In this document: positions 1,809 through 31,202 of the stretch, piece after piece
Numbering within the stretch: the stretch's first letter is position 1
Layout: each line of letters opens with the position of its first letter
Origin: a virus
Direction: 5' to 3' (one strand)
Virus record (IMG/VR): IMGVR_UViG_3300029309_000080
Coordinates: 3,466-45,178 of that record
DNA: 41,713 nucleotides
Notes under the pieces: model-generated
The model's input: the letters and a program-made list of their open reading frames with translations, nothing else
The model's database searches: none
Told to the model about the DNA's origin: nothing
Program-made: the position numbers and the translations under genes

Positions 1809-3670
1809 TGAATTATAATCAGCAAGCTCCTTTGCAAGGCAAAGCAGAAGAACTGGCTAGCTACGGCAGATATGGCGACAGCATGCTTGTTCACATGAAC
1901 CCTATCGAGGTTGAGGGTATAGCGGCTTTGACTCCAGGAGGCCTTACCACTAACCCTGTGACGGGTCAGCCTGAAGCTTTTGCTTTTCTTATTCCTATGC
2001 TGGCAAGTATGGCGGCTCCAACTGCATTTACATCTATTGGTCTTGGTGCTTTGGGAGCTAATACTGCTCTTGCTGGAGCGATAGGCTCTGGCCTAGCGAC
2101 AACGGCATTGACTGGGGATCTGAAGAAGGGCTTGGCATCTGGTCTTACCGGATATGGAATAGGATCTGCTCTTGGCTCGGCAAAAGAGGCGATTGCTGGA
2201 GTTCCTGAGGCCGCAAAAGTTGCTGACGCAGCAACAAGCGCAGTTGACGCTGCTAAACAGCAAGTAGCAGAACAAGCAATAGAGCAGGGTGGCACTCAGA
2301 CTTTGCAAGAAGCGTTTAAAGCAAACCAGCCCCTCCAAGATCTTCTTGATGTGCAGGATATTGCGCAAAGCGATTTGCTTGCAGCACAAAACGCAGCGAA
2401 ATCTAGGGTTGGTGTAGGAGACGTTCTTACATCAAGAGAAGGTTTGGGCGCATTAGCATCGAGCGCACTAGATAAATCAACATTAATTCCTGTAGCCGTT
2501 GGATCTGGTCTTCAAGGTCAGATAGACATGCAGGAGCAGTCTGAAGCATTAGGAAGAAGGCTAGAAGAAGAAAAGAGAAGAGACAAAGAAAAGTATGAAG
2601 GCATATTAGGAGAGTCCCTAGCGCAGATAGGTTTAGATTATGGGTTAGATATGTCTGGTTATGGAGGCGGTTATCACGCCGGTGGAGTGGTTTCTTTGAA
2701 CCCTCAAAACTACCAAAGATCTTTGGCAGAAGCTCAAATGTTAGGCATGCAACAGCCAATAGGTATGAGGATGGGGGGAAGAACTACCACCACAACAAAA
2801 CCAGCAGATGAATCTCCTTCGTCTAGATTTGAAAACATGATGGCAAACATGCAGTTTGGTCCGGGTTCTGCTGCTACAAGGCAAGCGCAACTAAGAGGGC
2901 CAGAGGTTATATCCCCAGAAGATTTAAAAGGATATCGTCCCGGTATAGATCCAGAGATCATGTATTTTAGACCAAGAACTCAAGCAGAGCAGACAGAAGA
3001 TACAGCAAATGAGGCGTATATAGGCCCGTCTGGAGATCCTAGATTCGATCCAGGATTCATACCTGATGAAGTTTTTGCAAACTTGCCTTTCGGTATTGGA
3101 GCAGAATTAAGAAATCAAATAACAGAAGGTATGTTAGATCAATATCAAGCTGACATGACTATGGGTAGAGACACTCAGTTGGTTGCTAGAGATCCTGTTT
3201 CTGGAACCACTGATTACACGGATATATATGAGTTTGAAGCAAGACCTATGGCTGCTGGAGGAAGCACCTCAACAGATCCTTTAATAAATCAAACGATCAT
3301 GGCTGTTCTTGGTAGATTGCCAGAAGAGGATGCAGATGTCGTAATAAAAAGATTTATAGATGAGTATGGTACAGAGGCATTCCAGATGTTGAGGAACCAG
3401 GCATTGAGATCTGTTGTACCCGGCGCTCAAACAGAAGGTTTGATCGAAGGAGAAGGTGGCGGCATGGATGATCAGGTTCCAGGGATGATTGGAGATCAAC
3501 AGCGTGTGGCTGTCTCGCCCGGCGAGTACATAATCCCAGCGGATGTTGTTTCTGCTACTGGGGATGGCTCTACGGACGCAGGAGCCGAAAGGTTTGACCA
3601 GATGATTGATGCCATCAGAATGGAAAAAACAGGCACTATAGAGCAGCCAGAGCCTCTGGGAGCCAGATAA
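1808..3670 (+). CDS. internal or tail structural protein with Ala/Gly-rich N-terminus
   Basis: A 620-residue protein starting at the ATG in TAATG, directly on the preceding stop. Residues 50-110 are very rich in Ala, Gly and Leu and could form amphipathic or membrane-active helices, a trait of ejected podovirus proteins. Residues 120-270 are helical and charged. The C-terminus (567-593) carries the motif VAVSPGEYIIPADVVSATG followed by DAGA, which I recognise from uncharacterised virion proteins of marine phages; a MAAGG element precedes it. It lies between tail genes and a GNAT-like gene. I infer an internal virion or ejection protein. Confidence 0.6.
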   Translation: MNYNQQAPLQGKAEELASYGRYGDSMLVHMNPIEVEGIAALTPGGLTTNPVTGQPEAFAFLIPMLASMAAPTAFTSIGLGALGANTALAGAIGSGLATTALTGDLKKGLASGLTGYGIGSALGSAKEAIAGVPEAAKVADAATSAVDAAKQQVAEQAIEQGGTQTLQEAFKANQPLQDLLDVQDIAQSDLLAAQNAAKSRVGVGDVLTSREGLGALASSALDKSTLIPVAVGSGLQGQIDMQEQSEALGRRLEEEKRRDKEKYEGILGESLAQIGLDYGLDMSGYGGGYHAGGVVSLNPQNYQRSLAEAQMLGMQQPIGMRMGGRTTTTTKPADESPSSRFENMMANMQFGPGSAATRQAQLRGPEVISPEDLKGYRPGIDPEIMYFRPRTQAEQTEDTANEAYIGPSGDPRFDPGFIPDEVFANLPFGIGAELRNQITEGMLDQYQADMTMGRDTQLVARDPVSGTTDYTDIYEFEARPMAAGGSTSTDPLINQTIMAVLGRLPEEDADVVIKRFIDEYGTEAFQMLRNQALRSVVPGAQTEGLIEGEGGGMDDQVPGMIGDQQRVAVSPGEYIIPADVVSATGDGSTDAGAERFDQMIDAIRMEKTGTIEQPEPLGAR

Positions 3671-7668: not shown

Positions 7669-10600
7669 TGCCCACATATACCATTAGGGACATAGAGACC
7701 GGCGAAAGTTTAAGGGTAACAGGTGCAGAGCCGCCATCTCCTGAGGACGCTGAAGAGCTTTTCCAAAATTATTATGAATCAAAAAGAACTACTGGCGGTC
7801 AATTGTTTGAGACCGTCAAGGGTGCAGGGAGAGGATTTGCTAACGCATTTCTTACTGCTGGAGAAGGTCTAGCAGAGCTTGCTGACGCTGCCACAGACTT
7901 TGTGGGAGCAGAAGATCTAATAGATAGCGGTGAAGACAACGCACTAGTAAAAGCTGCCAGAGAGGGAAGGGCTGCTGTAGATGAGGCTATGGGTGCAGAT
8001 TCTGCCTATCGAGATACATGGGCTACAAAGTTTGGCGAAGGACTTGGTTCCTTTGCCTCTTTCTTTACCCCTGCTGGGGCGATCAAACTGCTTGGTATGG
8101 CTGGCAAAGGCGCTACAGCATTAAAAGCAACTGGGATGGGGTCATTAGCTGCTGGAACAGGTGCTGGGGAAGCTGCACAAAGAATAGAGGCAGCGAGAGA
8201 TCGTGGCATAGAAGTAACCGATGATCAGGAAAACCTGGCCGTTTTAGGTGGTACTGTAGTTGGGTTTAGTGAACTAATAACACCATCCAGATTGCTAAAA
8301 AGAATTAGCGGCAAAGGCGATAAGTTACCATCAGGAATAAAAGAAAGACTTTCTTCTGCTCTCAGGTCAGGCACAGAAGAGGGTTTGCAAGAGGTTTCTG
8401 CAAGCATAGCTCAAGATGCGATACAGAAGAACGTATACGATCCTAATTTTGAGATAGCTGGCGGCAATCTTTTTGAAGAGTTTACTATTGGCGGTGCAAT
8501 AGGTGCTGGAGCTGATTTGGTTCTTAACGCTGCTGCTGGCAGAAGAAACAATGCGGCCAATGCCTCTGCTTTTGAGTCAGAAAAGAAGATTAGAGAGCAG
8601 CAGGATCAGGCAATAAAAGACAGAGAAAATATTCTCTCTCAAGATCTAGAGATACAAAAGACTTTAGATGCAGAGCAAAGGCTCCAAGCAGAAGCAGACA
8701 GAGAATCAAACAGGATTCTTGCGGAGCAATCGAAGCAAATAGACCCATCTCAGATAGATGAACCTGTAGGGAAGAAAATTACCCCATCAATAAGAACGGG
8801 TTCTAGATATGTGTCTATGGTAGATACTACAGACGGAACCACCTTTCAGGCCGAAGAGCGTGTAAGAGTACGCAACCAAGGCAAACCAAACGAAACCACA
8901 ACTACCTTCGTTAATGTTCCAGACAAAGGCGAGATAATTACATCAGTAAACGGACAGGCTGTTCCTGCTGCACAGAGCGGCTTTCAGGTTATTACAGCCG
9001 TGGAACCAAGCGAATCTATACTCTCGTCCTCCCCTCAAGACAGAATGCTGGCTTATGCTCAGCATATCAGCAGAACTATGGGAGATAGTTTCCCCTCCGG
9101 TAACAACATGTTTACCGTGAAGCTTCCGCAAGACTACGGAGGCAAACAAGTTGATGCCACAACTTTAAAAGACGGCGCTCCAGTCTTTCTTGTCGAAGAT
9201 TCAAAGGGCAACCGATACGGCAAACCCTTACAGACATCAGAAGAAGCATTCGCTTTGGCTGGTCATCTCAATACTCAAATCATAAACAACAATGTCTATG
9301 CTGCTGGTGATGCTGCAATTAAGACATCTGGTCAGTCTTATAACGAGTCTCAGATAAATTCTTTGCAGAGATATAACTTTGCAGCAAATCATCCAGACTC
9401 GAACACCTACTCAGCTCCTGCCGTCGATGGTGCGGCAGAGACTACTCAGGACAGAGGTTTTGATGAGCTTGCAAACGTAAAGGATTTGATGGCAGAGGGT
9501 GTCAGCCCCAGAAACATGACGGCATCTCAAAGAATAAACGCAAAAAGAATGCGAAAGGGATTGCCTCCCACTAAAACATTTACCATTCAGGAGGTAAAGT
9601 CTGTGCTGAACGATCAGCAGCTTTACAACTTGACAGATACCAGGCTGAACGGATTACCAGAGACAGAAACATACAAAGCTGGTCTCAGCAAAAACGGTAA
9701 TCCCGTTGTTTATAGCAGTGCTGGAGAGACATTGCAGGGCAGACCTCTGACTACTCTAGAAAAAGATGCTGCAATCAAAAATAATCCAAAGAAGAAGCCG
9801 CCAAAGATTGTAAGGTTTAAGACCCAAGCAGATGCTATTGCTTACTCGAATCAACTAAACAACACGACTAATAGATCTGCCGTAAACAAAGGCGTTATGC
9901 GTAACGTAAACGCTGATCTCAAAGGCTTACAGCAGCTACTAAAATCAAAGAACATAACATCTGAGGTTGGATCTCCAGAGGTTAGGTATTTAGCAAAACA
10001 AATCACCGGATCTCCCAAGCCCCTCAGCTCTCAAACGGAGGCCAATCAAAGGCTTTTCTATCAAAAGATAAGATCCTTACCAAGATTCGATAGACCTACC
10101 AAACTACCCCTATTCAAGGAGAAAAAGTACACCGGAGCGCAGTTCAGGGCGGCACTATCTCGTTACCAAAAAACTAACAATTTAGACAACGCTGTTTCTG
10201 CGGCTGGTATAGCACCACAAACCGCTGCTGCAAAAGACTTAAAGAGAGATATAAGCAGCCAAACCATAGATCCCGTGGTAACAGAGACAGTAACAGAAGA
10301 GGTTGCAGTAGACACCGCCGCCCCTCTTGCTTTACCAGCGCCAAGGAAGTTAGAAAATCTAAGAAAATCAATCAAAGAAAGGATGACTAAGTATGGCCTC
10401 AAAGATGTAGCCGTAAACCTAGATAATGCTCTTAATACAGCAGCTAGAGGTGCAGATGGTCAGCTTTACTACGGAATAAGACCAGCAAGAGAAGGAGATG
10501 CAGAGTCAATACTGGTTGGCGGGTCACAGGGTAGCGGTAGGTTTGCATTTGCTACCGATATAGACCCAGAAGGAAGAGCGCAAGCATATTATTCTAGGTC

Positions 10601-13600
10601 TCTCAATCAGATATTTCTTGGTGTAAACGAGATCCTAGGGAAAAAGTCTTTAAGTGATGCTGAGATAGAGGCTGAAGTACTTAGTGTCTTGGATCACGAG
10701 ATGATTCACGCAGCTCGTCAGTTGGATTTGTTTACCACTAAAGAGTGGTCTCTGCTAAGTAACGCAGCTATAAACAAAGAGAAAGAAAATAATCAAACAT
10801 ATATAGATTGGGCTATAAAAAACTACAAGGACTTAACTAATGATCAGCAAATAGAAGAAGCTATTGCAGAGCTTGTAAGAGATGCGGTGGCAAACCCCAA
10901 GATTCTACAAGGAAAGCCAAGATCACTTGTTACGAGAGTTGTTGAGTTCTTCAGGAATCTTGTTTCTTCGTTGCGTAAAGAAGGATTTACTAGCGCAGAG
11001 GACATAGTAAACGCTATAACTTCTGGACGGATAGGGGCCAGAGAAAGAACACAAAGAACAGAAAGAGAAACAAGAAGAAGAATATTCCGTGATGTCAAAG
11101 CAGCAGAGGAAAGAGGGCAGACAAAAGTTGCATTAGGCGCTGAAGCAGAAGCTCTTGCCGAAGAAACAGGTGCTGGTCAACAGATACCAGACTTTGTTGA
11201 GTCAGGCATTGCTCAAGACGCAGAGGAAGTCTATACGGCAGATGTCGTAAACTTTAGCCGCAAATCCAAGCCAATGAGAGAGCCTGACAACGTAGTAAAG
11301 GCATACAAGCTATTTACTTACAAAGACGGACAGATTTATCCGCTGTTTGTTGAGGGCGCTACCCCGATCCCGGTTGGTGAGTGGATAAAGGCAACAGACC
11401 CAAGGACGGAAGGAGCTAAAGGTTTCTTCATGGGAGCAAATGGAAAACCTTATGTAAAAGCAACAACAGGCGGCAGGGTAAATGTAGAGCCAGAAGAGGC
11501 TCAAAGGTTGTTTGAGCTTGGGGTTATAAAAAGCCCAGATGTCAAAGCAATACAGGGCGTAGCTTTCAGGCCGGGATTTCATTCGGGCGATTTACCTATG
11601 GCCCCACACATAGGCGGCAAGACCAGAAAAAATCTTTCTAAGCCAGATTTTAGAAAAGACGATCAAGTGTGGGCAGAGATAGAGGTTCCAGCAGATGTTG
11701 ATTGGCAATCTGTAGCGAATGCAAACGCCAGAGCAAAGAAAGATGGGACAATCGATGTATCAACGGCAGACATAACTGATCAAATGCCAGAGAACGGTTA
11801 CTACCGTTACAAAACCAACCCGAACATGTTTGAAAATTGGATGATTAGTGGCGGTATCAAGGTCACTAAAATCCTCACAGACAAGGAATCTAGAGCTATA
11901 TCTGCAAAAGCCGGTGTATCTGATTTGCCCAGGCGGGAAGGTTATGTAGACCCAATCGATGTTGGCGGCTTGATGCTGTCAAAACGGCCCCTAGAAGAGA
12001 TGGGTAAAGCAGAAAGTATGGGCATGACCAACACTGACATCATGCCAACAGAAGAAGATGTCGAGGCCATGAAGAACAACACCTACAAGCCAGAGCGCAA
12101 GAGGACGCTTGTAGAAGCTGCAACATTCCTACAAGAGAAGTGGGAAAGAGCCACAGGAAGAACGACTCCCTTTGAATACACAGAAGAAAACATATCCATA
12201 ATATCAGACATGCTTGCCACAGAAGCTTTGTCTGCCCTTGATAGGGATGGCAATGCGATTGGTTGGTACGACAGAAAGATTAAGTCTGCCAAAGACATTA
12301 TGCGCTTGGTAGATCCAAGGATAATGAAGTCAAAAGAAAACGAGGCTCTGTTTGATTTCTTGCTTGCTGTGACCTCTAACGGACAGGCTGTTGTAGATAA
12401 CTTTAAGATTGCTAACGATTTGTTTAGCTCTTACATGAAGAACAAAAAGCTGCCAGAGACAAAGGCTCAGTTCGATCTTGGTGGTGAGCGTAACGAAGCC
12501 ATGCTACAGGCCTTTAAGTTTTACAACGCTTACGAAAACCTAAGGAAGACATCGAATCAATTCGATCAGCCAATATATGAGTTCCTTGATCAAGATGTAA
12601 AAGTCAGGGATTTGAGGGAGGTTGCCGAAGAGTTCAACAGACAGGCTGGCTATGAAGCAATGGTCATACCATCTGCTGAGGGTGCTAATGTAGATGTAAA
12701 AGTTAGCTATATACTAGGGCCTAAGATAGGCCAAGGTTTCTACCAAAACATCAGGGGGAACTATGATCCTCTTACGATGGATATATGGTGGATGAGGATG
12801 TGGAACAGGGCTGTTGGAAGGCCCTTCGAGACAGCAAAAGAGCTGCAACCAAGAAGAGATGAGCTTGCCAATCTATTCAAAAAAGTTGGTGGTCTGCCAA
12901 AGAAACTAATCAAAGAGGTTGAAGCAGGTTATCCCCAGACGATTCAAGAGATAACAGAAGACCCGGATCTTATGGATTCTTTTATCAGAGATGTAGAGAA
13001 GAGATATCAGAAGTTCTACAAGGAATACAAAGAGAAGAACGGGGTCAATCATCAAAAGCCTGATGTATTTAAGAAGACAGGCACATTTGTAAAGAACCTA
13101 AAGCCTCAGTTGCAAGCCACACCAAAGGGTGTAGAAGAAAGGGCTTACATGCGAGAGGTTGTTAAGGCTACCCAGCAAAGGTTGAAGGAAAGAAACTACG
13201 ATATTAGTACGGCAGATTTTCAGGCCCTCATGTGGTATCCTGAGAAGCAGTTGTTCCGAGCCTTGGGTGTACAGCCTGGAAGAGGATCTGATAACGACTA
13301 TCTAGATGCAGCAGTGATACTTGCTGAAAGCAAAGGAGTTCCAAGTGGCAAAATTGAAAAAGCACTCAGGGAGTCAGAGAGAAGAAGGGGCGCTAGTGAC
13401 CCAAGTCCCAGAGGGGCAGATGGAGGGCTTCGTGAAGCTCCTCCAAGAAAAACTACAAAGCAGACCGGCGAAGCCTTCACGCTCCCAGCAACAAAGCTAA
13501 AACCAAAGAAGATACCTGAGGGGGTAGCAGAGAGGGTAGCGGAAGAAAACCTAGAGAAAGCAGAAACCGCACCTGTTGGGGATGTTCCCTTAGTAAATCC

Positions 13601-16325
13601 AAAGTCATCCGCATACTCACAAGCAGTTGCAAAAGACCCAAGCAAGGGTCAGAAACTAGACCCCGGTGATGATGTCTTGTTCTCTAGAGGTAACGGCCCA
13701 GACATAAACCCGGTACAACAAGCCGCAATAAACAGAGTATCTCAAGAGATACCCACTGACACACCGGGGCAGACATATCTTAACGTCCTCAATCAGGGTT
13801 CGTTCAATAAGAAGTTCACCCAGCTTAAACAAAAAGCAGTCAATAGATACGCTCAGGTAGAGAACTATGAAAAGAAAGGGGCGTTAGGCCCTAGACTTGC
13901 AGACTCTTCTGCTCTTGCCGCCTTGTTATTTGCTGACAGATCAAACGCTATTACAGCCGCCGCATTACAATACGGAGTGCCTGTCTACAAAAACGGACTA
14001 GTCAAGGTAGTAGACTTTGAGCACAGGAACGATAGGGGCGAAGTAAAGCAGTACAATGGACTAATAGATTTGATGTCCATGCTGTATACAAAAGAGCATG
14101 GATCTCTTGAGCAGATAGCGCAGTCATATGCCATAGCGAAGAGAGCGGAAAGGCTAAAGGCGAGAGGGTTGCAGGTTCCCGGTTCAGATGCGGATCACGC
14201 ACAGAATATCAAAACAGCAGAGTCATTCTTAGACGCAGACGGTAACTCTATAATCAAGGACTGGTATAACGCATGGCAAGCCTATAACTCTTATACCATC
14301 AAGTTCCTCAAAGACACCGGGATGTTAAACGAACAGACGGCAGAAGCTTGGAGGTTGCAGTCTGACTACATACCTTTTTACAGGCAGCTAGAGGGTTCTG
14401 CCTTCCCTAATGTTCCAAATGTGTTTGGTGGCTTAACATCAAGCAGTGAACTCAAAGCCATCAGGGGCAGTGAGAAGGCTCTTAACGTGCCTATGCTGGA
14501 GGCCATAACTCTAAACTTAAATGCCGCTATAACTATGGGCATGAAGAACGTGGCCCAGCAAAGGCTAATAAGAGATATGAATAGTATTGGCCTAGCTAGA
14601 GAGGTTGGCAAAGGAGAGAAAACAGCAGGACAAAATGTTGTGTCTTTCAAGGTTGGAGGAAAGAAAAGAAACTTCTATGTTGATGACCCGCTTGTGTACG
14701 AGTCATTAACTATTGAACCAGCATCAGGTGTCGAGAGAACTCTAACAAACATCTTTGGAGCACCAGCAAGATTTTTAAGAGAGATGGTTACCAGAGAGCC
14801 TGGGTTTGTCATAGCAAACATGCTTAGAGATTCTCTCTCTGCATTTACCACATCTGGTTCAAACTTTATTCCTATCTTAGATACGCTAAGAGGTTTCCTC
14901 AGTGGGATGGAGAAGCTGGAAAAAACTGGTGTTGTTGGTGGATATGATTACAAGAATGACCCACAGAATATTGGTGAATTTGCAGGAAAGATATTAGGAC
15001 AAAGAAACAAAAACATAGGATCAAACAATTACTTTGTTAACGGTGTTAAGAAGCTTTGGGATATCACCGGACATGCATCGACGCTATCTGATGCGGCAAC
15101 AAGAAACGCAGTATATGAAGACGTATTAGCAAGAACAGGGAACGAAGCAGAAGCAACATTCCAAGCGATGGAGGTGCTGAACTTTGGCAGAAGGGGAAGC
15201 AACCCTGTGATGAGAGTCATAGCTGCAACAACGCCGTTCTTGAATGCCAGAATACAGGGATTGGATGTATTAGCCAGAGCTGCCGCTGGCACTAACTCAG
15301 CTAATCGAGATCTATCTAGAGGCAAGGTCGCTGCTTCATTCCTAGCCAGAGGCGGGATACTGGCCGCATTGACCATGTATTACTACACGATGGTTAGCGA
15401 TGATGAGCAATACGAAGAACAAACAGAAGAGATAAAAGATAACTATTGGATAATCCCCAGAGAATCTGGAATACCATTTAAGATACCTATTCCTTTTGAG
15501 GTGGGACTGATATTTAAGACCATACCAGAGCGTATAATGGATTCTTACCACAAAGGGACCACTGCCAGGGAAGCGCAGCAGTCAGCAATGAGAGCTGTTA
15601 CCGGGACGCTAGCGGTGCAATTTCCTCAGGCCATAACACCTTTGCTTGAGGCTTACACAAACTATGATCAGTACAGGGGAAGGCCTGTAACTCCTGTCTA
15701 CATAGACTCAAGAGGAGAAGAAGGCCTACAGCAGCTAGCCAGCACAACAGAGATAGCCAAAGCTATTGGCGCTAAGACTGGCATGAGTCCCATTAAGATC
15801 GACCATCTGATAAAGGGATATACAGGAACTATAGGTGGTTATGTTCTGTCTGAAGCTGACAGATTATTAAGAAGCACGACAATACAGGGAGACAACAGAA
15901 ATGTGCTGCCAGCAAGAGATGCTACCCAGTATCCAATAGCAAGAAGATTCTTTGGTTCAGAGTTTGGTGGTGGTGTTAAAGAAGACTTCTATGAGATGTA
16001 TGACTATGTCAGGAGGCTTGATGAGTCAGTTAAGTCTCTCTATGAAGCTGGCAGAGGTGACGAGGTTGATGCCTTCATACTTGGCAGAGAAGAGTTGGTT
16101 GGTGGATCAAAAGCCCTCAGGAAAGTTTCAGACAGGCTAGCAAAGGTCAGAAGGATGAGAAGAAAGGTTCTCGAATCTGACATGAGCGCGGAAGAGAAGC
16201 AAGAATACATTAGAGAGCTAAACATAAGCGAAAGATATATTTTAGAAGTTGTTCCCGAACTACAAAAAATGTTCAAGATACCAACTTATACAGAGGATAT
16301 ATCAAGAAGAATGTTTGGTGGGTGA
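7668..16325 (+). CDS. giant polyvalent (ejection-type) protein, 2,885 aa
   Basis: The largest gene, starting at the ATG in TAATG. Modules visible in order: an N-terminal segment (PTYTIRDIETGESLRVTG) with small hydrophobic helices to about residue 290; charged linkers; a metallopeptidase-like motif H1010-E-M-I-H1014 preceded by an acidic helix; a conserved block at about 1208-1430 (YPLFVE, RPGFHSGDLPMAPHIGGK, VWAEIEVPADVDWQ, NGYYRYKTNP) seen in other phage polyvalent proteins; a block at about 1510-1800 with DPLTMDIWWMRMWNR and a later FQALMWYPEKQLF; and a C-terminal region from about 2370 (TREPGFVIANMLRDS, TPFLNARIQGLDVLARAA) resembling the large polyvalent protein domain LPD38, with a hydrophobic segment near 2558-2576. 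Such proteins are thought to be packaged and injected with DNA. Position and size parallel T7 gp16. The individual activities are inference. Confidence 0.75.
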   Translation: MPTYTIRDIETGESLRVTGAEPPSPEDAEELFQNYYESKRTTGGQLFETVKGAGRGFANAFLTAGEGLAELADAATDFVGAEDLIDSGEDNALVKAAREGRAAVDEAMGADSAYRDTWATKFGEGLGSFASFFTPAGAIKLLGMAGKGATALKATGMGSLAAGTGAGEAAQRIEAARDRGIEVTDDQENLAVLGGTVVGFSELITPSRLLKRISGKGDKLPSGIKERLSSALRSGTEEGLQEVSASIAQDAIQKNVYDPNFEIAGGNLFEEFTIGGAIGAGADLVLNAAAGRRNNAANASAFESEKKIREQQDQAIKDRENILSQDLEIQKTLDAEQRLQAEADRESNRILAEQSKQIDPSQIDEPVGKKITPSIRTGSRYVSMVDTTDGTTFQAEERVRVRNQGKPNETTTTFVNVPDKGEIITSVNGQAVPAAQSGFQVITAVEPSESILSSSPQDRMLAYAQHISRTMGDSFPSGNNMFTVKLPQDYGGKQVDATTLKDGAPVFLVEDSKGNRYGKPLQTSEEAFALAGHLNTQIINNNVYAAGDAAIKTSGQSYNESQINSLQRYNFAANHPDSNTYSAPAVDGAAETTQDRGFDELANVKDLMAEGVSPRNMTASQRINAKRMRKGLPPTKTFTIQEVKSVLNDQQLYNLTDTRLNGLPETETYKAGLSKNGNPVVYSSAGETLQGRPLTTLEKDAAIKNNPKKKPPKIVRFKTQADAIAYSNQLNNTTNRSAVNKGVMRNVNADLKGLQQLLKSKNITSEVGSPEVRYLAKQITGSPKPLSSQTEANQRLFYQKIRSLPRFDRPTKLPLFKEKKYTGAQFRAALSRYQKTNNLDNAVSAAGIAPQTAAAKDLKRDISSQTIDPVVTETVTEEVAVDTAAPLALPAPRKLENLRKSIKERMTKYGLKDVAVNLDNALNTAARGADGQLYYGIRPAREGDAESILVGGSQGSGRFAFATDIDPEGRAQAYYSRSLNQIFLGVNEILGKKSLSDAEIEAEVLSVLDHEMIHAARQLDLFTTKEWSLLSNAAINKEKENNQTYIDWAIKNYKDLTNDQQIEEAIAELVRDAVANPKILQGKPRSLVTRVVEFFRNLVSSLRKEGFTSAEDIVNAITSGRIGARERTQRTERETRRRIFRDVKAAEERGQTKVALGAEAEALAEETGAGQQIPDFVESGIAQDAEEVYTADVVNFSRKSKPMREPDNVVKAYKLFTYKDGQIYPLFVEGATPIPVGEWIKATDPRTEGAKGFFMGANGKPYVKATTGGRVNVEPEEAQRLFELGVIKSPDVKAIQGVAFRPGFHSGDLPMAPHIGGKTRKNLSKPDFRKDDQVWAEIEVPADVDWQSVANANARAKKDGTIDVSTADITDQMPENGYYRYKTNPNMFENWMISGGIKVTKILTDKESRAISAKAGVSDLPRREGYVDPIDVGGLMLSKRPLEEMGKAESMGMTNTDIMPTEEDVEAMKNNTYKPERKRTLVEAATFLQEKWERATGRTTPFEYTEENISIISDMLATEALSALDRDGNAIGWYDRKIKSAKDIMRLVDPRIMKSKENEALFDFLLAVTSNGQAVVDNFKIANDLFSSYMKNKKLPETKAQFDLGGERNEAMLQAFKFYNAYENLRKTSNQFDQPIYEFLDQDVKVRDLREVAEEFNRQAGYEAMVIPSAEGANVDVKVSYILGPKIGQGFYQNIRGNYDPLTMDIWWMRMWNRAVGRPFETAKELQPRRDELANLFKKVGGLPKKLIKEVEAGYPQTIQEITEDPDLMDSFIRDVEKRYQKFYKEYKEKNGVNHQKPDVFKKTGTFVKNLKPQLQATPKGVEERAYMREVVKATQQRLKERNYDISTADFQALMWYPEKQLFRALGVQPGRGSDNDYLDAAVILAESKGVPSGKIEKALRESERRRGASDPSPRGADGGLREAPPRKTTKQTGEAFTLPATKLKPKKIPEGVAERVAEENLEKAETAPVGDVPLVNPKSSAYSQAVAKDPSKGQKLDPGDDVLFSRGNGPDINPVQQAAINRVSQEIPTDTPGQTYLNVLNQGSFNKKFTQLKQKAVNRYAQVENYEKKGALGPRLADSSALAALLFADRSNAITAAALQYGVPVYKNGLVKVVDFEHRNDRGEVKQYNGLIDLMSMLYTKEHGSLEQIAQSYAIAKRAERLKARGLQVPGSDADHAQNIKTAESFLDADGNSIIKDWYNAWQAYNSYTIKFLKDTGMLNEQTAEAWRLQSDYIPFYRQLEGSAFPNVPNVFGGLTSSSELKAIRGSEKALNVPMLEAITLNLNAAITMGMKNVAQQRLIRDMNSIGLAREVGKGEKTAGQNVVSFKVGGKKRNFYVDDPLVYESLTIEPASGVERTLTNIFGAPARFLREMVTREPGFVIANMLRDSLSAFTTSGSNFIPILDTLRGFLSGMEKLEKTGVVGGYDYKNDPQNIGEFAGKILGQRNKNIGSNNYFVNGVKKLWDITGHASTLSDAATRNAVYEDVLARTGNEAEATFQAMEVLNFGRRGSNPVMRVIAATTPFLNARIQGLDVLARAAAGTNSANRDLSRGKVAASFLARGGILAALTMYYYTMVSDDEQYEEQTEEIKDNYWIIPRESGIPFKIPIPFEVGLIFKTIPERIMDSYHKGTTAREAQQSAMRAVTGTLAVQFPQAITPLLEAYTNYDQYRGRPVTPVYIDSRGEEGLQQLASTTEIAKAIGAKTGMSPIKIDHLIKGYTGTIGGYVLSEADRLLRSTTIQGDNRNVLPARDATQYPIARRFFGSEFGGGVKEDFYEMYDYVRRLDESVKSLYEAGRGDEVDAFILGREELVGGSKALRKVSDRLAKVRRMRRKVLESDMSAEEKQEYIRELNISERYILEVVPELQKMFKIPTYTEDISRRMFGG

Positions 16326-25981: not shown

Positions 25982-26045
25982 TTCCAAGAGCGCCCCTCCT
26001 AAGACGCTTTCACGCTGGTAGCAAGCCAGCACTCATCAGTTGGAA
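25982..26045 (-). ncRNA. hammerhead ribozyme 1 (type I)
   Basis: Read on the minus strand: stem I TTCCAA, core CTGATGA, stem II GCTGG-CTTGCTA-CCAGC with flanking G-U pairs, core GAA, stem III AGCG ... CGCT with a 12-base loop that itself contains AGGAGGGG, then C as cleavage base H17, then stem I partner TTGGAA. The invariant C3, G5, A6, G8, A9, G12, A13, A14 and the A15.1-U16.1 pair are all present. Cleavage would fall between 25988 and 25987. It lies between the VWA gene stop and the next Shine-Dalgarno site. It is the most diverged copy: position 11.1 is U, giving a G-U pair. Confidence 0.9.
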
Positions 26046-26047
26046 TG

Positions 26048-27271
26048 TTAGATGTTCTCAGGGTCCAGCATGATCACCTCGCCAAAAGGCTCACAACCCC
26101 GGAAGAACGGTGCTCTGCCTGTAGTCGCCCATATGACCGGGAAGTCAGGCTCGTAGAAGTTGTGCATTGCCTCAGGTCCGACATCGCCCCATCCGTCAGT
26201 GAAGTAGATCATCGCGCAGGGATCTAGATCTTTGCTATGGACATAGTTGAACGGCGGGTTGAACTCAGTGCCACCGCTCTCAGGAACGTGCAGCTTGATC
26301 TCATCACCGCGCTCGAACTCAGACACACCGCAAACAACCTCGTGGCAGTAGATGACCACAATCTTTTTAGGCATGACTGAGTCGGCAATGTCCTGCAACT
26401 CTGACGCGATCACCCTCAGCTCTTCAGCAGTGAACATCGAGAAGCTGCAATCTATCGCGATAACCAGCTCACCAGTAGGCTCACGCCTAGGTGTTGGCAG
26501 TATCCAGCCAGTAGATAGAAGCCTACGGTTGGGTCTAGCAAAGGTATTCTCTGCACAGTTGAAGTTGGTGAATAGAGCCTTCAGCTCCTCAGCCCAGCTA
26601 ACCGTTGATGCTCCAATGCCATCGATAAGCTTGTCCACGGCAAAGTTGCCACGGCCAGCAATCTTGTCAGCGATAGTCTTGGCTTGATGCATTTGTGCAG
26701 CAATCTCTCGCTCCATAGCTTTGGCGATCTCTACAGAGGGACCGTCACCCTCGCCCTCACCCTCACCGCTAGGCGCGGGGAAAACCTCACCGGCAATCGG
26801 GCCGTCAGGACGCTGTAACTCACCATCATCATCGAGCTTCTTGAGCTTGGCATATATATTCTCTGCGGTCATGTCCGCATAGCCCCAGTCAAACAAGCCC
26901 CCCTCAGGCATCTTCATGCCAGCCTTTACGAGTGGCGGGTTAATAGCAAAGTCACAAGCCATGTTCCAGATCTCGTGATCACGGTCACCCTTCCGGGTCA
27001 TGTGGAAAGAATCTACATGCATTACCTCGTGTGCCACGGTGAACTCAAGCTCTTCTATAGTCTGGGCTAGTACCCAGTCAGGGTTGAAGAGAATCTGAAC
27101 ACCATCAGTTGCCATAGTTTGTATTTCGTAACTACAGCTCTTCTTGAGCATGTTAACCCTCATACAAAAGTAGATCGTATCCGGGTTGACCGCTAGCCTA
27201 CGGATAGCCTTCTGAACCATCTGTGCAGCCATGAAGCTGTTGTCGTTTAGTTCTGCAATTTCAAAATTCAC
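26048..27271 (-). CDS. putative metallopeptidase with VWA-like domain (DUF2201/COG3864-like)
   Basis: A 407-residue protein. The N-terminal half has a zinc motif H81-E-V-M-H85 followed by DHEIWNMACDFAIN, the pattern of the VWA-like metallopeptidase family. After an acidic Gly/Glu/Asp-rich linker, the C-terminal half is a von Willebrand A-type domain with a MIDAS site: D274-x-S-x-S278, the Thr of GGTEF (335) and D359 in FTDGWGD. Such proteins work as partners of MoxR-type AAA+ ATPases, which are encoded two genes upstream. I infer metal-dependent remodelling or maturation of a complex; phage targets are unknown. Confidence 0.75.
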   Translation of the reverse strand: MNFEIAELNDNSFMAAQMVQKAIRRLAVNPDTIYFCMRVNMLKKSCSYEIQTMATDGVQILFNPDWVLAQTIEELEFTVAHEVMHVDSFHMTRKGDRDHEIWNMACDFAINPPLVKAGMKMPEGGLFDWGYADMTAENIYAKLKKLDDDGELQRPDGPIAGEVFPAPSGEGEGEGDGPSVEIAKAMEREIAAQMHQAKTIADKIAGRGNFAVDKLIDGIGASTVSWAEELKALFTNFNCAENTFARPNRRLLSTGWILPTPRREPTGELVIAIDCSFSMFTAEELRVIASELQDIADSVMPKKIVVIYCHEVVCGVSEFERGDEIKLHVPESGGTEFNPPFNYVHSKDLDPCAMIYFTDGWGDVGPEAMHNFYEPDFPVIWATTGRAPFFRGCEPFGEVIMLDPENI

Positions 27272-27280
27272 AAAGCCCCC

Positions 27281-28165
27281 TTAGTCGTATAGACCAGTTA
27301 AGTTATCGATAATGTTCTTCGCAGAGTCTCTAGCTGACTGACGCTTGCGTTTAGAGTTCCGTAGATCCTCAGGGTTTAGGTTAGAGAAGCGGGTCAGCAG
27401 ATCGTTTGCAGCTTGGGTAAGCTTGGGATCACCAGTAATGTTTAGGTGCGGCAGAGACCCGGCAAGGTTGGCAAGCTTCGACACAGTATTGTCGGAGAAC
27501 TTGCTGGCCCTCTTAGCTCCGGGAGCCTTCTTGCCGTGGCGTTCCATGCCATCGACAAAGTCCTGCAATGCATCCACAACTCTGTCATGCACACTGCGAG
27601 TAGCGTTCTCGACACGCTCCGTAACGCTGGCCTCGATGTCTGCCTTCATCTTATCGAGTGCAGCTTTGGGCAGATTAAGCTTGATATCAGAGTCTGGTAT
27701 CTTGTTCTTCTCTACCTTGATGCTGTAGCTATCGACAACCTCGTCTACCGTTGGGTAGTCGTTAATGTCGAATGCAGCGCCCAAGTCCCTCCGCGCTCGA
27801 TCAAGTATGTCCGGGTACGTTTTGCGTAACTCAGCTTTGAGATCGTTCTGCTTTGTGATCTTGCGCTTCATCTCAGAGTCGAACTTGTCAAACATCGCCA
27901 CGCCCTGAATATACCAGCCGTCACCGTCCCACAATGCACCGTGGTCAGGGATAGTGTGATTCCTGATCTGCCCCTGATTAGAGTTAAGAGACTTGATTAC
28001 AGGAGAATCAAACAGGGTCTTGTTGACCCGGATCAACTTGTCCTTCGCACCTTTGGACTCAGTCACCTCATTAGATATTGACTTGTCACGCTTGGTGTTG
28101 CCGAACTTAGTCATGCGGACCCTGACGAGCAGGTTGTTCTCTTGGATTTTAGTATCCAAATTCAT
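27281..28165 (-). CDS. conserved protein between AAA+ and VWA genes (DUF3150-like, tentative)
   Basis: A 294-residue helical, charged protein with AAGGA before its ATG. It has a beta-rich start (NLLVRVRMTKFGNTKRDK), a central WDGDGWYIQGVAMFDKFDSEM and a long helical C-terminal half rich in Lys, Asp and Arg. In layout and position, flanked by a MoxR ATPase and a VWA partner, it resembles the DUF3150 proteins of such phage and bacterial trios, but the identity is a guess. It probably is the third component of that complex. Confidence 0.6.
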   Translation of the reverse strand: MNLDTKIQENNLLVRVRMTKFGNTKRDKSISNEVTESKGAKDKLIRVNKTLFDSPVIKSLNSNQGQIRNHTIPDHGALWDGDGWYIQGVAMFDKFDSEMKRKITKQNDLKAELRKTYPDILDRARRDLGAAFDINDYPTVDEVVDSYSIKVEKNKIPDSDIKLNLPKAALDKMKADIEASVTERVENATRSVHDRVVDALQDFVDGMERHGKKAPGAKRASKFSDNTVSKLANLAGSLPHLNITGDPKLTQAANDLLTRFSNLNPEDLRNSKRKRQSARDSAKNIIDNLTGLYD

Positions 28166-28178
28166 ATGTTGTTCCTTA

Positions 28179-28193
28179 GGGGGCAGCGCCCCC
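28179..28193 (-). other. intergenic hairpin before the DUF3150-like gene
   Basis: GGGGGC-GCT-GCCCCC on the minus strand, a six-pair stem with three-base loop, placed immediately before the AAGGA binding site. No T-run follows, so it is not a typical terminator. It may stabilise the downstream mRNA end or tune translation. No hammerhead core is present here. Confidence 0.45.
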
Positions 28194-28209
28194 GGTTGGT
28201 TGGTGTTGG

Positions 28210-29307
28210 TTAGTGGATGTCTTGGTTGACTTTGTAATCAACGTACTCAGCGGTCCCTTTGATGATGTCCACATCTTTGCGACTGCCAGTGGCAGCCCAG
28301 AAGACCGGGACAAGCTCCTCATTCATGGACCGAACAACCTTCAGTGCGTTGCTGAGATTCGACGGGTCACATCTCTGTGAGAGAATCGAAGTCAGCGCGA
28401 ACTGAGTAGATAGCTCCTCAGGCGTGGGCTGATCAGGATCATCTAGGTAGTCCATCACGTTGGGTAGGTTACGCATGGTCCTGAGAAACCCCATGAACTC
28501 AGCAGCAACCCCAGCACCTAGGCAGGACTCGAAAGCCTCAGCCTCCTCCTCAGCATTGTAGCCGTAGTCGAAGAACCTAGATGCTTGCGTCCAAGACCTA
28601 TGCGTAGCAATAGCGACTCTGTCCTTAGGCGCTCCCCCGTCCGGGAACTCATGCATGCAACCGTTCTGGCCTCCAACGCCCTCACCCCTGAACATCAGGA
28701 AAGCGATTATTGAGGCATCCAACCCGGCTGGTCTAGCATAGTCCTCAACCCAATGGGCGGTTGGCTGGTAAACGTCGAAGTGCTGCGAGAATCGATTCAT
28801 CTGTGCAGCGTCACGCCTACCGTGTACACCCGCGCCATCCTGGGGTCTATTGCTGGCTGCGATCACAACCCAGCCCTTGGGCAGCTCGTAGTTGCCGATA
28901 CGTCCATCATTCAGTAGCTGGTAGGTAACGTGCTCGACTGAGGCGCTGGCTAGCTGGACCTCATCCAAAAACCACATGCCATACTTACCGTCACGCTCCT
29001 CAGTGGGTAGCCACTCAGGGACGGCGAATCTGGTCATATCGTTAGCGACTTGCGGCATACCCGTGAAGTCTGTCGAGTCGAGCTGAGATACTCGTGTATC
29101 AATCAGCTTGAAGGAGCCGAACTCCTCAGCTAGAAGATCAGCGGCTGCGCGAACTGCTGAAGACTTAGCGACACCATACGGCCCCCACAACATCTGAGGA
29201 AGGATGCGGTCAGCGCCGCCCTCCATGCCTCGAATGTTGGTAATCGTAGCTTTGACGATGTGATTGATAACACTGCGAACTGTAACTTTTGTGGCATTGA
29301 TAGCCAT
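28210..29307 (-). CDS. MoxR-family AAA+ ATPase
   Basis: A 365-residue protein; I take the second ATG (MAINATKV) because AGGAG then has nine-base spacing, though the ATG at 29313 is possible. Walker A G42-PYGVAKS49, Walker B MWFLDE (111-116), sensor-1 N153 in IAASNRP and the segment RRDAAQMNRFSQHFDV match the MoxR/RavA group. It uses ATP to remodel a partner, here likely the VWA protein. It is the first gene of the module behind hammerhead ribozyme 2. Function inside the phage is unknown. Confidence 0.8.
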   Translation of the reverse strand: MAINATKVTVRSVINHIVKATITNIRGMEGGADRILPQMLWGPYGVAKSSAVRAAADLLAEEFGSFKLIDTRVSQLDSTDFTGMPQVANDMTRFAVPEWLPTEERDGKYGMWFLDEVQLASASVEHVTYQLLNDGRIGNYELPKGWVVIAASNRPQDGAGVHGRRDAAQMNRFSQHFDVYQPTAHWVEDYARPAGLDASIIAFLMFRGEGVGGQNGCMHEFPDGGAPKDRVAIATHRSWTQASRFFDYGYNAEEEAEAFESCLGAGVAAEFMGFLRTMRNLPNVMDYLDDPDQPTPEELSTQFALTSILSQRCDPSNLSNALKVVRSMNEELVPVFWAATGSRKDVDIIKGTAEYVDYKVNQDIH

Positions 29308-29329
29308 AAGCATTTACTCCTGTTGGTTT

Positions 29330-29384
29330 TCCAAGACCCCCGGAGGGGTTTCGGCTAGTCACCAGCTAGCTCTCATCAGTTGGA
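29330..29384 (-). ncRNA. hammerhead ribozyme 2 (type I)
   Basis: On the minus strand: stem I TCCAA, core CTGATGA, stem II G plus GCTAG-CTGGTGA-CTAGC with one bulged A, closing C, core GAA, stem III ACCCC-TCCG-GGGGT, cleavage base C, stem I partner TTGGA. All invariant core bases are present. Cleavage falls between 29335 and 29334. The stop codon TGA of the upstream gene lies inside the CTGATGA core. The 3' product runs from TTGGAAAACCAACAGGAG into the AAA+ gene start. Confidence 0.93.
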
Positions 29385-29534
29385 TTCGATAGACAAGACA
29401 TTGTCGAACCAGTCGTTAAAGTCTTTGGCAGTGGCGAAGCTAGGCACAACGATGGTCCCGCTATACTCAACTTGCCCGGTCTCATAATCGAAGTACGCGA
29501 CAGTCCCGCGCTCGATATCTATTTGCTCACGCAT
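29376..29534 (-). CDS. 52-residue hypothetical protein ending in ribozyme 2
   Basis: A short acidic protein starting MREQIDIERGTVAYFDY; the ATG has AGGGAGG nine bases upstream and overlaps the previous stop. Its last codons (Ser-Asn-stop) are built from stem I and the CTGA of the hammerhead core, so the reading frame and the ribozyme share bases. Function unknown. Confidence 0.6.
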   Translation of the reverse strand: MREQIDIERGTVAYFDYETGQVEYSGTIVVPSFATAKDFNDWFDNVLSIESN

Positions 29535-29751
29535 ATTTATTAGCCTCCCTAAATTCATAGATTCCCAAGATTAAAAAGCCGATGCCGTTTATCACGAACA
29601 AAGGCCCAACAAAACTGAACACAACATGCACCTGCTCACTGGTGAAGTAGTACATAAAGGTCAGCGCCAACCCACTCAAGAAAACAAAAGACCCCAATAA
29701 GAAGTGGGCTAGAAACTTGAGTAAAGCAGAGATCATTCTGGTGTTAGTCAT
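29527..29751 (-). CDS. small membrane protein with two TM segments
   Basis: A 74-residue protein with AAGGAG seven bases before ATG. Hydrophobic segments at about 10-33 (LLKFLAHFLLGSFVFLSGLAL) and 43-64 (VVFSFVGPLFVINGIGFLIL) are separated by a short polar turn, with a charged C-terminus REANKYA. It could be a holin-like or other inner-membrane protein; position in the early-looking operon argues against a lysis role. Function unknown. Confidence 0.6.
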   Translation of the reverse strand: MTNTRMISALLKFLAHFLLGSFVFLSGLALTFMYYFTSEQVHVVFSFVGPLFVINGIGFLILGIYEFREANKYA

Positions 29752-29926
29752 TGTCGGACTCCTTCAGTTCAGAGATCAGGTTCTCGATAGCACTCACGAA
29801 CTCGTAATACTTACCGTTAAGAACGTATGACCCGGACCCAAATTCGCCGTCTTTAAGCTTTTTCTTATTGGGCTTATAGACTAGCCAGTGATCTAGAAAC
29901 ATTTCTATGTCTCTCCGATCATTCAT
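29744..29926 (-). CDS. 60-residue hypothetical protein
   Basis: A short protein (MNDRRDIEMFLDHWLVYKPN) with a CGGAGTG site about eight bases before ATG and a Lys/Glu-rich middle. It overlaps the membrane-protein gene by eight bases. It is the first gene behind ribozyme 3, the distance from cleavage site to ATG being about 26 bases. Function unknown. Confidence 0.55.
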   Translation of the reverse strand: MNDRRDIEMFLDHWLVYKPNKKKLKDGEFGSGSYVLNGKYYEFVSAIENLISELKESDND

Positions 29927-29946
29927 AATTAAACACTCCGTTAGTT

Positions 29947-30003
29947 TTCCAATACGCCCGTAGGGCGTTTCGACTGGTCACTAATCAGTCTCATCAGTTG
30001 GAA
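29947..30003 (-). ncRNA. hammerhead ribozyme 3 (type I)
   Basis: On the minus strand: stem I TTCCAA, core CTGATGA, stem II GACTG-ATTAGTGAC-CAGTC (five perfect pairs), core GAA, stem III ACGCCC-TAC-GGGCGT (six perfect pairs), cleavage base A, stem I partner TTGGAA. The cleavage triplet is GUA, unlike GUC in copies 2, 4 and 5, and still fits the NUH rule. Cleavage falls between 29953 and 29952. It lies one base after the stop of the upstream gene. Confidence 0.95.
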
Positions 30004-30186
30004 TTAGAGGTAAGGGTTGGAGGCGTTCAGCGCCGCCGTCCGGGCATCCTTACCAGATAGGAATAGGTGAGTTGCTGTATCCCAGCAGACTCTACCCGCA
30101 TTAAGAGCGTAGTCCTCACGCTCGTTTATAGCCCGCTCATACCGGGCCATCCAAAGGGCGCGTTTTGCCGCTTGTCTTGCTTGCAT
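30004..30186 (-). CDS. 60-residue hypothetical protein between ribozymes 4 and 3
   Basis: A short basic protein; I take the start at MQARQAAKRALWMARYERA because the longer frame would run through the ribozyme. It is rich in Ala and Arg and likely helical. The binding site is weak (CGGATA). It is a single gene bounded on both sides by hammerheads, so cleavage would leave it as a monocistronic mRNA. Function unknown. Confidence 0.5.
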   Translation of the reverse strand: MQARQAAKRALWMARYERAINEREDYALNAGRVCWDTATHLFLSGKDARTAALNASNPYL

Positions 30187-30206
30187 AAATAGGTATCCGT
30201 TAGTTA

Positions 30207-30260
30207 TCCAAGACCGCCTAAGCGGTTTCGACCAGTAACTAATTGGTCTCATCAGTTGGA
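30207..30260 (-). ncRNA. hammerhead ribozyme 4 (type I)
   Basis: On the minus strand: stem I TCCAA, core CTGATGA, stem II GACCA-ATTAGTTAC-TGGTC (five perfect pairs), core GAA, stem III ACCGC-TTAG-GCGGT (five perfect pairs), cleavage base C, stem I partner TTGGA. Cleavage falls between 30212 and 30211. Compared with copy 3, stem II changes from GACTG/CAGTC to GACCA/TGGTC and stays paired. It starts one base after the upstream gene stop. Confidence 0.95.
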
Positions 30261-30261
30261 A

Positions 30262-30528
30262 TTATAGAAGGTCAGCCTCCTCGATTAGCTGAAAGTCATT
30301 AAGAACAAACTGTCTGCGTTTCGGGGTCATATGCACATAAGCCTCGATTCTAGAATGAATCATGGAGTCGCATATTCTGTAAGCGATAGAGCTGTTTGGG
30401 CTGGTCAGTATGTCGCAGTTAACACCATTAACCAGAACTTTAAGCTTGAATCTGGGGTTACCCATCGGGCTGTTGTTCATCCTCACGATGTCATAAAGAA
30501 CGCCGTCAATTAGATATTCGCTTTTCAC
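30262..30528 (-). CDS. 88-residue hypothetical protein
   Basis: A protein starting with GTG (VKSEYLIDGVLYDIVRM), overlapping the upstream TAG by one base (TAGTG), with GGAGG eight bases upstream. It has beta-strand-like segments (FKLKVLVNGVNCDIL) and a His/Met/Arg-containing helix. No family recognised. It ends directly before ribozyme 4. Confidence 0.55.
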   Translation of the reverse strand: MKSEYLIDGVLYDIVRMNNSPMGNPRFKLKVLVNGVNCDILTSPNSSIAYRICDSMIHSRIEAYVHMTPKRRQFVLNDFQLIEEADLL

Positions 30529-30704
30529 TAAAGTACCTCCGCTATTGCTAGGGCATCGCCCCAAGTTAACTTAACGGCGTATGCGTCCATCGTATACTCG
30601 CGTATTCGATCCGCTACCCCGTCCATGTCGCGGCCGCTATCCATAAGAAAGCGTATAGCCGCACCCAGTATGTCCTCCAATTGGACCGTGTTTAATTTCT
30701 TCAT
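30528..30704 (-). CDS. 58-residue hypothetical protein
   Basis: A short helical protein (MKKLNTVQLEDILGAAIRFL, then DGVADRIREYTMDAYAVKLTW). Its ATG overlaps the preceding stop (ATGA) and its stop overlaps the next GTG, so the three small genes are coupled. No family recognised. Confidence 0.55.
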   Translation of the reverse strand: MKKLNTVQLEDILGAAIRFLMDSGRDMDGVADRIREYTMDAYAVKLTWGDALAIAEVL

Positions 30705-30853
30705 ATTTGATAACCCCCGGCTGACACAGAGCCGCTGTTGTTTAGAAAAGATCTAACCGATGCGAAGAACCTACGCTTTCGCATGATCAGTTTGTTCAGA
30801 GCTATGCGTCTGCGATTGTGACGCAGCACTCTCTGTCTCTCTTGTTCACTCAT
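30701..30853 (-). CDS. 50-residue Arg-rich hypothetical protein, first gene of the ribozyme operon
   Basis: A very basic short protein (MSEQERQRVLRHNRRRIAL, then MRKRRFFASVRSF). I take the ATG at 30853; longer frames run through ribozyme 5. The binding site is poor, which is unusual for this operon. It could bind nucleic acid. It follows the structured leader and ribozyme 5. Confidence 0.45.
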   Translation of the reverse strand: MSEQERQRVLRHNRRRIALNKLIMRKRRFFASVRSFLNNSGSVSAGGYQI

Positions 30854-30877
30854 AACTGAGTACTCACATTTTAGTTT

Positions 30878-30927
30878 TCCAAGACCTTGCGGTTTCGGCG
30901 GGGAACTACCCCGACTCATCAGTTGGA
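30878..30927 (-). ncRNA. hammerhead ribozyme 5 (type I), in the operon leader
   Basis: On the minus strand: stem I TCCAA, core CTGATGA, stem II CGGGG-TAGTT-CCCCG with a G-C closing pair and one U/C mismatch, core GAA, stem III ACC-GCAA-GGT with a GNRA loop, cleavage base C, stem I partner TTGGA. All invariant core bases are present. Cleavage falls between 30883 and 30882 and would separate the roughly 280-base leader from the first gene of the operon. Confidence 0.92.
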
Positions 30928-30959
30928 TTGCGAAAGCTTCGAGGATGAATCAAAGCCAA

Positions 30960-31140
30960 TAGCCCGGTTCGCGTTGTCGGCATCTGTATGCCTTCCGGGG
31001 AACTGTGTATCGCTGAACGCCGTAGGAGCGCCGGACTCTTACCGGAGGGGCTTGGCCTCTATGACCGTAGCAGCATCACACTGCACCCCTATCGCGTGAG
31101 CTAGGCTCACCAGATTTATTTTTGATCAGTCCTAGGACTG
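30960..31140 (-). ncRNA. structured 5' leader RNA of the ribozyme operon
   Basis: No gene is convincing between 30928 and the promoter near 31172. In plus-strand coordinates, inverted repeats are CCCGG/CCGGG (30963-30967, 30995-30999) enclosing GGCAT/ATGCC (30979-30983, 30988-30992); CGCT/AGCG (31011-31014, 31027-31030); CCGG/CCGG (31031-31034, 31042-31045); AGGGG/CCCCT (31046-31050, 31086-31090); GTGAGC/GCTCAC (31096-31101, 31105-31110); and the 14-base palindrome CAGTCCTAGGACTG (31127-31140). This is dense structure for a leader. Hammerhead 5 would release it as a free RNA with a cyclic-phosphate 3' end. The class is not recognised. Confidence 0.5.
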
Positions 31141-31171
31141 GCGGGATTAAGGCTCCCCGTGGCCTGAGCGG

Positions 31172-31202
31172 ATTATACACACAGTACGTAGTACTTTGTA
31201 AA
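31172..31202 (-). promoter_or_regulatory. putative sigma70 promoter of the ribozyme operon with palindromic spacer
   Basis: On the minus strand a perfect TATAAT (31172-31177) lies 19 bases downstream of TTTACA (31197-31202), with TG directly before the -10. The spacer holds the palindrome AGTAC-GTA-GTACT (31183-31195), a likely operator. Transcription would begin near 31165 and read toward 25162. The long spacer is a weakness of the call. Confidence 0.55.

Follow-up and report, generated by a model that had tools for sequence, protein, structure and literature searches.

A phage operon carrying five hammerhead elements

The window analysed here is a stretch of 41,713 nucleotides, positions 3,466 to 45,178 of the virus record IMGVR_UViG_3300029309_000080. 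Its minus strand carries a run of genes, A to M, which gene order suggests is one transcription unit. A conserved noncoding leader precedes them, and five hammerhead ribozyme elements are set between the leader, single genes and blocks of genes (Table 1). A reading of the letters alone (the original prediction) had claimed five type I hammerheads on this strand, and all five lie where it had placed them, in sense orientation within the one operon. Each element is 50-64 nt long and runs in the order stem I, core CTGATGA, stem II hairpin, GAA, stem III hairpin, cleavage base, stem I. Base-by-base reading recovered the predicted core, GAA and A15.1-T16.1 pair in five of five copies, and in all of them TCCAA is complementary to TTGGA in stem I. 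The cleavage base, given beforehand as C or A, is A in hammerhead 3 and C in the other four, and every one of the proposed cut sites is at its correct position. Small defects of stem II are seen in hammerhead 1, which has a U.C mismatch, and in hammerhead 4, which has a one-base bulge. As in type I hammerheads, there are three helices, with stems II and III closed by loops and stem I open.

Table 1. Features of the operon in 5' to 3' order of the minus strand (window coordinates; pseudoknots are given as loop II with 3' flank of stem I).
Feature	Coordinates	Strand	Predicted cut	Pseudoknot	R1 score (bits)	Remarks
Noncoding leader	31175-30935	-				conserved; ends just 5' of hammerhead 1; predicted release by cut 1
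Hammerhead 1	30927-30878	-	30883 (C17)/30882	TAGT 30908-30905 with ACTA 30875-30872	67.9	stem I TCCAA 30927-30923 / TTGGA 30882-30878; C3 at 30922; cleavage base C
Gene A	30853-30701	-				small gene; block A-B-C
Gene B	30704-30528	-				small gene; overlaps neighbours by start/stop codons
Gene C	30528-30262	-				small gene; stop TAA 30264-30262
Hammerhead 2	30260-30207	-	30212/30211	TAGT 30241-30238 with ACTA 30204-30201	76.6	gene C stop just 5'; RF00163 28.9 bits
Gene D	30186-30004	-				60 aa; the only gene from hammerhead 2 to hammerhead 3
Hammerhead 3	30003-29947	-	29953/29952	TAGT 29983-29980 with ACTA 29945-29942	74.2	cleavage base A
Gene E	29926-29744	-				block E-F-G, overlapping genes
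Gene F	29751-29527	-				block E-F-G, overlapping genes
Gene G	29534-29376	-				block E-F-G; stop is core UGA of hammerhead 4
Hammerhead 4	29384-29330	-	29335/29334	TGGT 29364-29361 with ACCA 29327-29324	81.2	gene G stop TGA 29378-29376 is U4-G5-A6 of the catalytic core
Gene H	29313-28210	-				AAA ATPase
Gene I	28165-27281	-				between genes H and J
Gene J	27271-26048	-				DUF2201 metallopeptidase-like / VWA-like (Pfam); stop TAA 26050-26048
Hammerhead 5	26045-25982	-	25988/25987	TTGCT 26024-26020 with AGCAA 25981-25977	68.5	compensatory pseudoknot variant of the other four; gene J stop just 5'
Gene K	25957-25574	-				after hammerhead 5
Gene L	25571-25404	-				after hammerhead 5
Gene M	25407-25162	-				after hammerhead 5

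A covariance model, R1, was built from 57 copies, the window's five included. Searched with this model, the 41.7 kb window yields exactly five places (68-81 bits, E 1e-14 to 5e-18) and no further match up to E = 10; the other 3.5 kb of the record (45,178 bases in all) hold no additional copy. A motif scan of 200 dinucleotide shuffles of the window gave 9 matches with a stem I of at least three pairs and a single match with at least five. A chance origin of the five copies is excluded, and their assignment to the type I hammerheads, in sense orientation within one operon, is strongly supported. Two other identities were considered and rejected. None of the 10 terminator-like sites in the window coincides with a hammerhead, which dismisses intrinsic terminators, and the window is without a tRNA, so that tRNA-linked processing as in theta ribozymes does not apply.

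A pseudoknot between loop II and the 3' flank of stem I

The original prediction had overlooked a tertiary pseudoknot, in which loop II pairs with bases starting 2 nt 3' of stem I. Three pair types occur in the window: TAGT/ACTA in copies 1-3, TGGT/ACCA in copy 4 and TTGCT/AGCAA in copy 5. Outside the window we found the variants TGAT/ATCA, TTGT/ACAA, TGGC/GCCA and GAAT/ATTC. Loop II and the 3' flank form Watson-Crick pairs in 64 of the 78 unique viral-contig copies, against 30.3 +/- 3.8 (maximum 42) in 2000 permutations. In the alignment of 57 copies (A1), 96.5% of pseudoknot cells are paired, with double changes at three of the four pairs. Over the whole structure 96.6% of cells pair, compared with 82.4% in shuffles, and there are 164 double-change cells compared with 46, with covariation in stems II and III; the shuffles keep the relatedness of the copies and these figures are not probabilities. 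Sliding the partner columns of A1 by 1-3 positions abolished the covariation signal. The tertiary contact that a type I hammerhead is expected to make from its stem I region to its stem II region thus takes the form of a pseudoknot, supported both by covariation and by the permutation test. The five elements probably belong to a single subtype carried by phages, whose hallmarks are a stem I that is short and open and a loop II that pairs over four to five bases with the 3' flank of stem I; this assignment shares the probability given below for the explanation as a whole.

Position 7 of CUGANGA is the sole free base of the hammerhead core. Across 51 copies from ten array loci this position is T in 38, C in 9, A in 3 and G in 1, and the six other bases of the motif, the GAA and the A15.1-U16.1 pair are unchanged in 51/51, with C or A as the cleavage base; the parsing of these copies used the core pattern with a bonus for GAA, and no match failed the core pattern. 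Stem I has ten different sequences among the same copies, all of them complementary. An invariant core combined with variable but complementary stems is the constraint expected of a working ribozyme and not of a passive hairpin. Judged from these sequences, catalytic activity would be the best explanation for the hammerheads of the window.

Placement at gene junctions

For the 78 unique copies, the distance from the end of the preceding stop codon to stem I has a median of 1 nt, and in 68 of 74 assigned cases the stop is within -30 to +20 of stem I. The next start codon follows at a median of 22 nt 3' of stem I, usually with a Shine-Dalgarno sequence in between. In the arrays the core's own UGA serves as the stop codon in 9 of 47 copies; in another 28 of the 47 the stop lies no more than 30 nt 5' of C3, in many cases within stem I. 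Comparing junctions in nine arrays, the 43 with a hammerhead have a median gap of 85 nt and no overlaps, whereas the other 116 have a median gap of 8 nt and 48 of them overlap; these values come from a simple gene caller of our own and are approximate. Part of the contrast in gap length is trivial, since the ribozyme itself occupies the space. The statistics do add that translationally coupled junctions carry no hammerhead. The window follows the same pattern, as most genes within its blocks overlap or almost touch and the junctions among genes A, B and C have no hammerhead. The view that each ribozyme sits between genes holds for hammerheads 2-5, while hammerhead 1 lies between the noncoding leader and the first small gene.

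This closeness of stop codon and core might suggest a translation-gated switch, in which a terminating ribosome blocks folding and the cut is made only if the upstream gene is not being finished, such that the array would sense ribosome load. The core UGA stops, the 28 stops just upstream of C3 and the median distance of -1 nt to stem I are all consistent with it. However, the compactness of phage genomes alone would give the same placement, and hammerhead 1 follows a noncoding RNA, where there is no ribosome to sense. We consider such a switch quite improbable.

The leader (30935-31175) retains about 80% nucleotide identity in distant relatives, which is above that of the coding genes. Its 3' domain is near-invariant (AGCGATACAC..GTTCCCCG..GGCAT-ATGCC..CGGGCTATTGGCT), and only three of its base pairs so far have covariation. 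It has no match in Rfam. A pattern search for it over IMG/VR returned 20 contigs, every one an already found hammerhead carrier. Just upstream, at 31202-31172 (-), TTTACA and TATAAT are separated by 19 nt; this sigma-70-like putative operon promoter was spotted by eye, its spacing being outside that allowed in our promoter scan.

Gene J belongs to a PHROGs family labelled 'HNH endonuclease' (phrog_1314), a label with which Pfam disagrees. With the AAA ATPase encoded two genes upstream, genes H and J resemble a MoxR/VWA pair. Given that AAA ATPase and the DUF2201/VWA-like domains found by Pfam, the HNH label is probably wrong. Elsewhere in the window, 7668-16325 (+) is a single open reading frame of 2885 aa among structural genes.

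Conservation of position and variation in gene content

We searched viral contigs for loci related to this operon by protein alignment of the AAA ATPase alone, with no selection on hammerheads, and obtained 28 loci. A hammerhead stands directly upstream of the ATPase gene in 14 of 14 loci (L169-L181 at 41-100% identity and L184 at 44%), a count that does not equal 14 independent events because several loci are near-identical. In L183 and L185 (38% identity) the hammerhead is instead directly downstream of the gene, and in L194 it is approximately 0.4 kb upstream; L182 is cut by the contig end. Loci at 29-33% identity have no hammerhead.

A relative 93-96% identical to the window (L132) lacks gene C and hammerhead 2 as a unit, and its genes B and D overlap. 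This raises the alternative that the elements serve mainly as portable junction adaptors, a stop codon, hammerhead and Shine-Dalgarno linker for the gain, loss and swapping of genes by recombination, with cleavage secondary. The clean absence of the module in L132, with B and D joined by overlapping stop and start codons, fits this well. So do the stops that the elements hold in more than one frame, usually with a Shine-Dalgarno sequence after them, and the genes between hammerheads, which differ among phages. However, the stems are free to vary while pairing and catalytic bases are kept, which points to selection on the RNA and not on a shared DNA sequence. Moreover, copies within one genome differ in both variable stems and so offer little homology for recombination. 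Adaptors of this kind are therefore an unlikely primary role.

Distribution among phages

An exact-pattern search of IMG/VR, restricted to the TCCAA stem I, found at least 119 stretches, most with proper stems. In 84,980 prokaryote genomes the same pattern matched 30 times; the inspected matches lack stems and are apparently due to chance, and bacterial chromosomes were rejected as the main home of these elements. Whole-record searches found six or seven copies each in G006, G013, G059, G060, G070 and G074, compared with the five of the window virus. The largest array is in G024 (39.8 kb; loci L127 and L128), which has 11 copies at E <= 0.001 and 13 with weaker matches, all on one strand. This record encodes a T7-type RNA polymerase, primase/helicase, DNA polymerase, ligase and exonuclease, a gene set that indicates a T7-like phage. 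Its hammerheads have several different stem I sequences and are without the TRGT/ACYA pseudoknot consensus; because that consensus is missing, they may use another tertiary contact.

The terminase of the window virus is 59% identical to that of Pelagibacter phage HTVC027P. No hammerhead match was found in its terminase relatives HTVC027P and HTVC023P (Pelagibacter phages), 023Pt_psg01, DSL-LC04 and Synechococcus phage MinM2. Of the 35 longer hammerhead-bearing records, 22 lack a homologue of the window terminase, some of these records being fragments. Short BLAST matches in Streptomyces phage Spernnie and Enterobacter phage EC151 proved to be fragments and not hammerheads.

Relation to known systems

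The original prediction spoke of single hammerheads in phages, which understates what is published. It also did not note that the stop codon can lie within the ribozyme, nor the far wider family with as many as 13 copies in a single record. Perreault et al. (2011; PMC3088659) described sets of hammerheads that flank prophage genes or blocks of genes and proposed a role in mRNA processing; cleavage was demonstrated in vitro for three of these arrays and in E. coli for one. The present arrays resemble them in that a single polycistronic phage RNA holds a number of hammerheads, set beside genes or short blocks of genes, and with five sense-strand copies around the gene blocks of one unit the window belongs to this clustered kind. 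The largest cluster named in the text consulted is the triple array of Agrobacterium tumefaciens. Unlike those arrays, as far as they are described there, the present ones consist of one subtype with the loop II/3'-flank pseudoknot, have 5-13 copies per record, place the stop codon at or inside the ribozyme and occur mostly in uncultured phages. The kind of system has thus been known since 2011, and the pseudoknot variant is, as far as the open literature shows and subscription papers aside, new; the supplementary alignments of that paper, with hundreds of bacterial hammerheads, may contain members of the subtype. In two seven-copy arrays (L129:5089-5964 (-) and L130:1344-2216 (+)) a hammerhead is directly upstream of an ArdC-like antirestriction gene, which recalls the ardA genes that PMC3088659 describes downstream of hammerheads.

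The nearest named phage is Pseudomonas phage PaP3 (Bruynoghevirus), which with its relatives has one copy each (R1 match, E 9e-12). Like the window copies, the PaP3 hammerhead is of type I, with a stop TAA abutting stem I, a Shine-Dalgarno sequence and GTG start just 3', and a pseudoknot between loop II TGAT and ATCA 3' of stem I. It differs in being the only copy in its genome and in its longer stem III. It is reported to be active (PMC3088659).

Two Rfam families are the closest in that database. Hammerhead_1 (RF00163) shares the core, strand order and open stem I with the window copies, whose best score in a permissive search was 28.9 bits against a cut-off of 34; in other arrays three copies exceed that cut-off, with up to 36.7 bits. 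RAGATH-1 (RF03152) likewise combines a hammerhead core with a pseudoknot, and the best window score was 37.6 bits (cut-off 56.3). From near-identical sequence, RF03152 appears to be the structure of PMC11300833, a pseudoknot hammerhead with an additional hairpin, helix IV, on its upstream side; this hairpin makes the pseudoknot, which takes the place of helix II. We rejected membership of this family for the window elements. Their scores fall short of its cut-off, upstream of them is coding sequence or leader and not helix IV, and their helix II is a regular hairpin with a pseudoknot of its own.

Outside the ribozymes, the ~7 kb early RNA of phage T7 is cut by host RNase III at five sites to give mono- and dicistronic mRNAs (PMC4858673). 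The window operon would be similar in operation but is not the same system, as a host protein does the cutting there and the RNA itself would do so here. In E. coli, putting the RiboJ insulator ahead of a gene raised transcript approximately twofold and protein two- to tenfold (PMC6206723).

Proposed processing of the operon transcript

Taken together, we propose that five active hammerheads of one phage subtype split the polycistronic operon RNA without protein, a reading to which we assign a probability of roughly 0.77. As the operon is transcribed, from ~31.2 to 25.2 kb on the minus strand, each hammerhead would fold and cut once in cis. The original prediction had the whole transcript processed. 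Processing would not be gene by gene; instead the five predicted cuts would free the leader RNA and the blocks A-B-C, D, E-F-G, H-I-J and K-L-M. Each new mRNA would begin with 5'-OH-UUGGA and a leader of ~20-25 nt, usually with its own Shine-Dalgarno sequence, and each upstream RNA would end in the stem II and stem III hairpins with a 2',3'-cyclic phosphate. By analogy with RNase III processing in T7, the likely benefit would be that all leaders are short and alike, that ends are defined and that each block is translated and decays independently, with no need for a host nuclease. The sequences, the covariation-based structure, the placement and the positional conservation are direct observations; hammerhead chemistry and the cleavage of similar arrays are taken from prior work, and cleavage of the window copies in infected cells would be the expected outcome.

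Several points weigh against this proposal. Covariance scoring, which the original prediction had put forward as a check, gave a divided answer: R1 matched all five copies, and at the gathering threshold Rfam matched none in the window. The 34 bits of RF00163 are, however, a database cut-off and not a defining property of the hammerhead class. Energy models that leave out tertiary terms make the hammerhead the most stable predicted fold, or one of equal energy, in three of the five copies; in the other two it lies 1.6-2.6 kcal/mol above the minimum. The uncoupled gaps H|I and I|J have no hammerhead, the missing module of L132 indicates that single copies are dispensable, and the ribozyme could be masked while the gene upstream is being translated.

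The first two of these points would also be expected if the elements were inactive relics or structural hairpins merely resembling hammerheads. Relics would hardly keep a core that is invariant save for the free position 7, strong covariation in stems II, III and the pseudoknot, and a conserved position at 41-50% protein identity, and we hold this alternative to be highly improbable. A further possibility arises from the ends themselves, since segments with a 5'-OH and a 2',3'-cyclic phosphate could be joined by RtcB-type ligases and the array might be a source of circular or religated RNA. The geometry of the window provides four internal inter-hammerhead segments. However, no ligase was recognised among those window proteins scanned, and Perreault et al. 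sought circular or spliced products of the prophage arrays and found none (PMC3088659). Such a function is very unlikely.

The role of bacterial and phage hammerheads has been an open question since 2011. Because Rfam cut-offs miss most ribozymes of the present kind, the numbers of phage hammerheads are underestimated. The arrays would also provide insulator parts of natural origin that act at several sites, similar to the RiboJ of synthetic biology, which we take to be a hammerhead-type insulator. A bolder and tentative view, which we think rather doubtful, is that a widespread class of phages replaces protein-based mRNA processing with ribozyme arrays at many uncoupled junctions, the terminating ribosome gating each cut through the built-in stop codon. 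Protein-free splitting of the operon RNA is the more limited proposal. A subtype that is tied to stop and start codons, conserved in place and found as many as 13 times in one T7-like phage makes it a testable claim, namely that these phages would carry out their own mRNA processing without RNase III.

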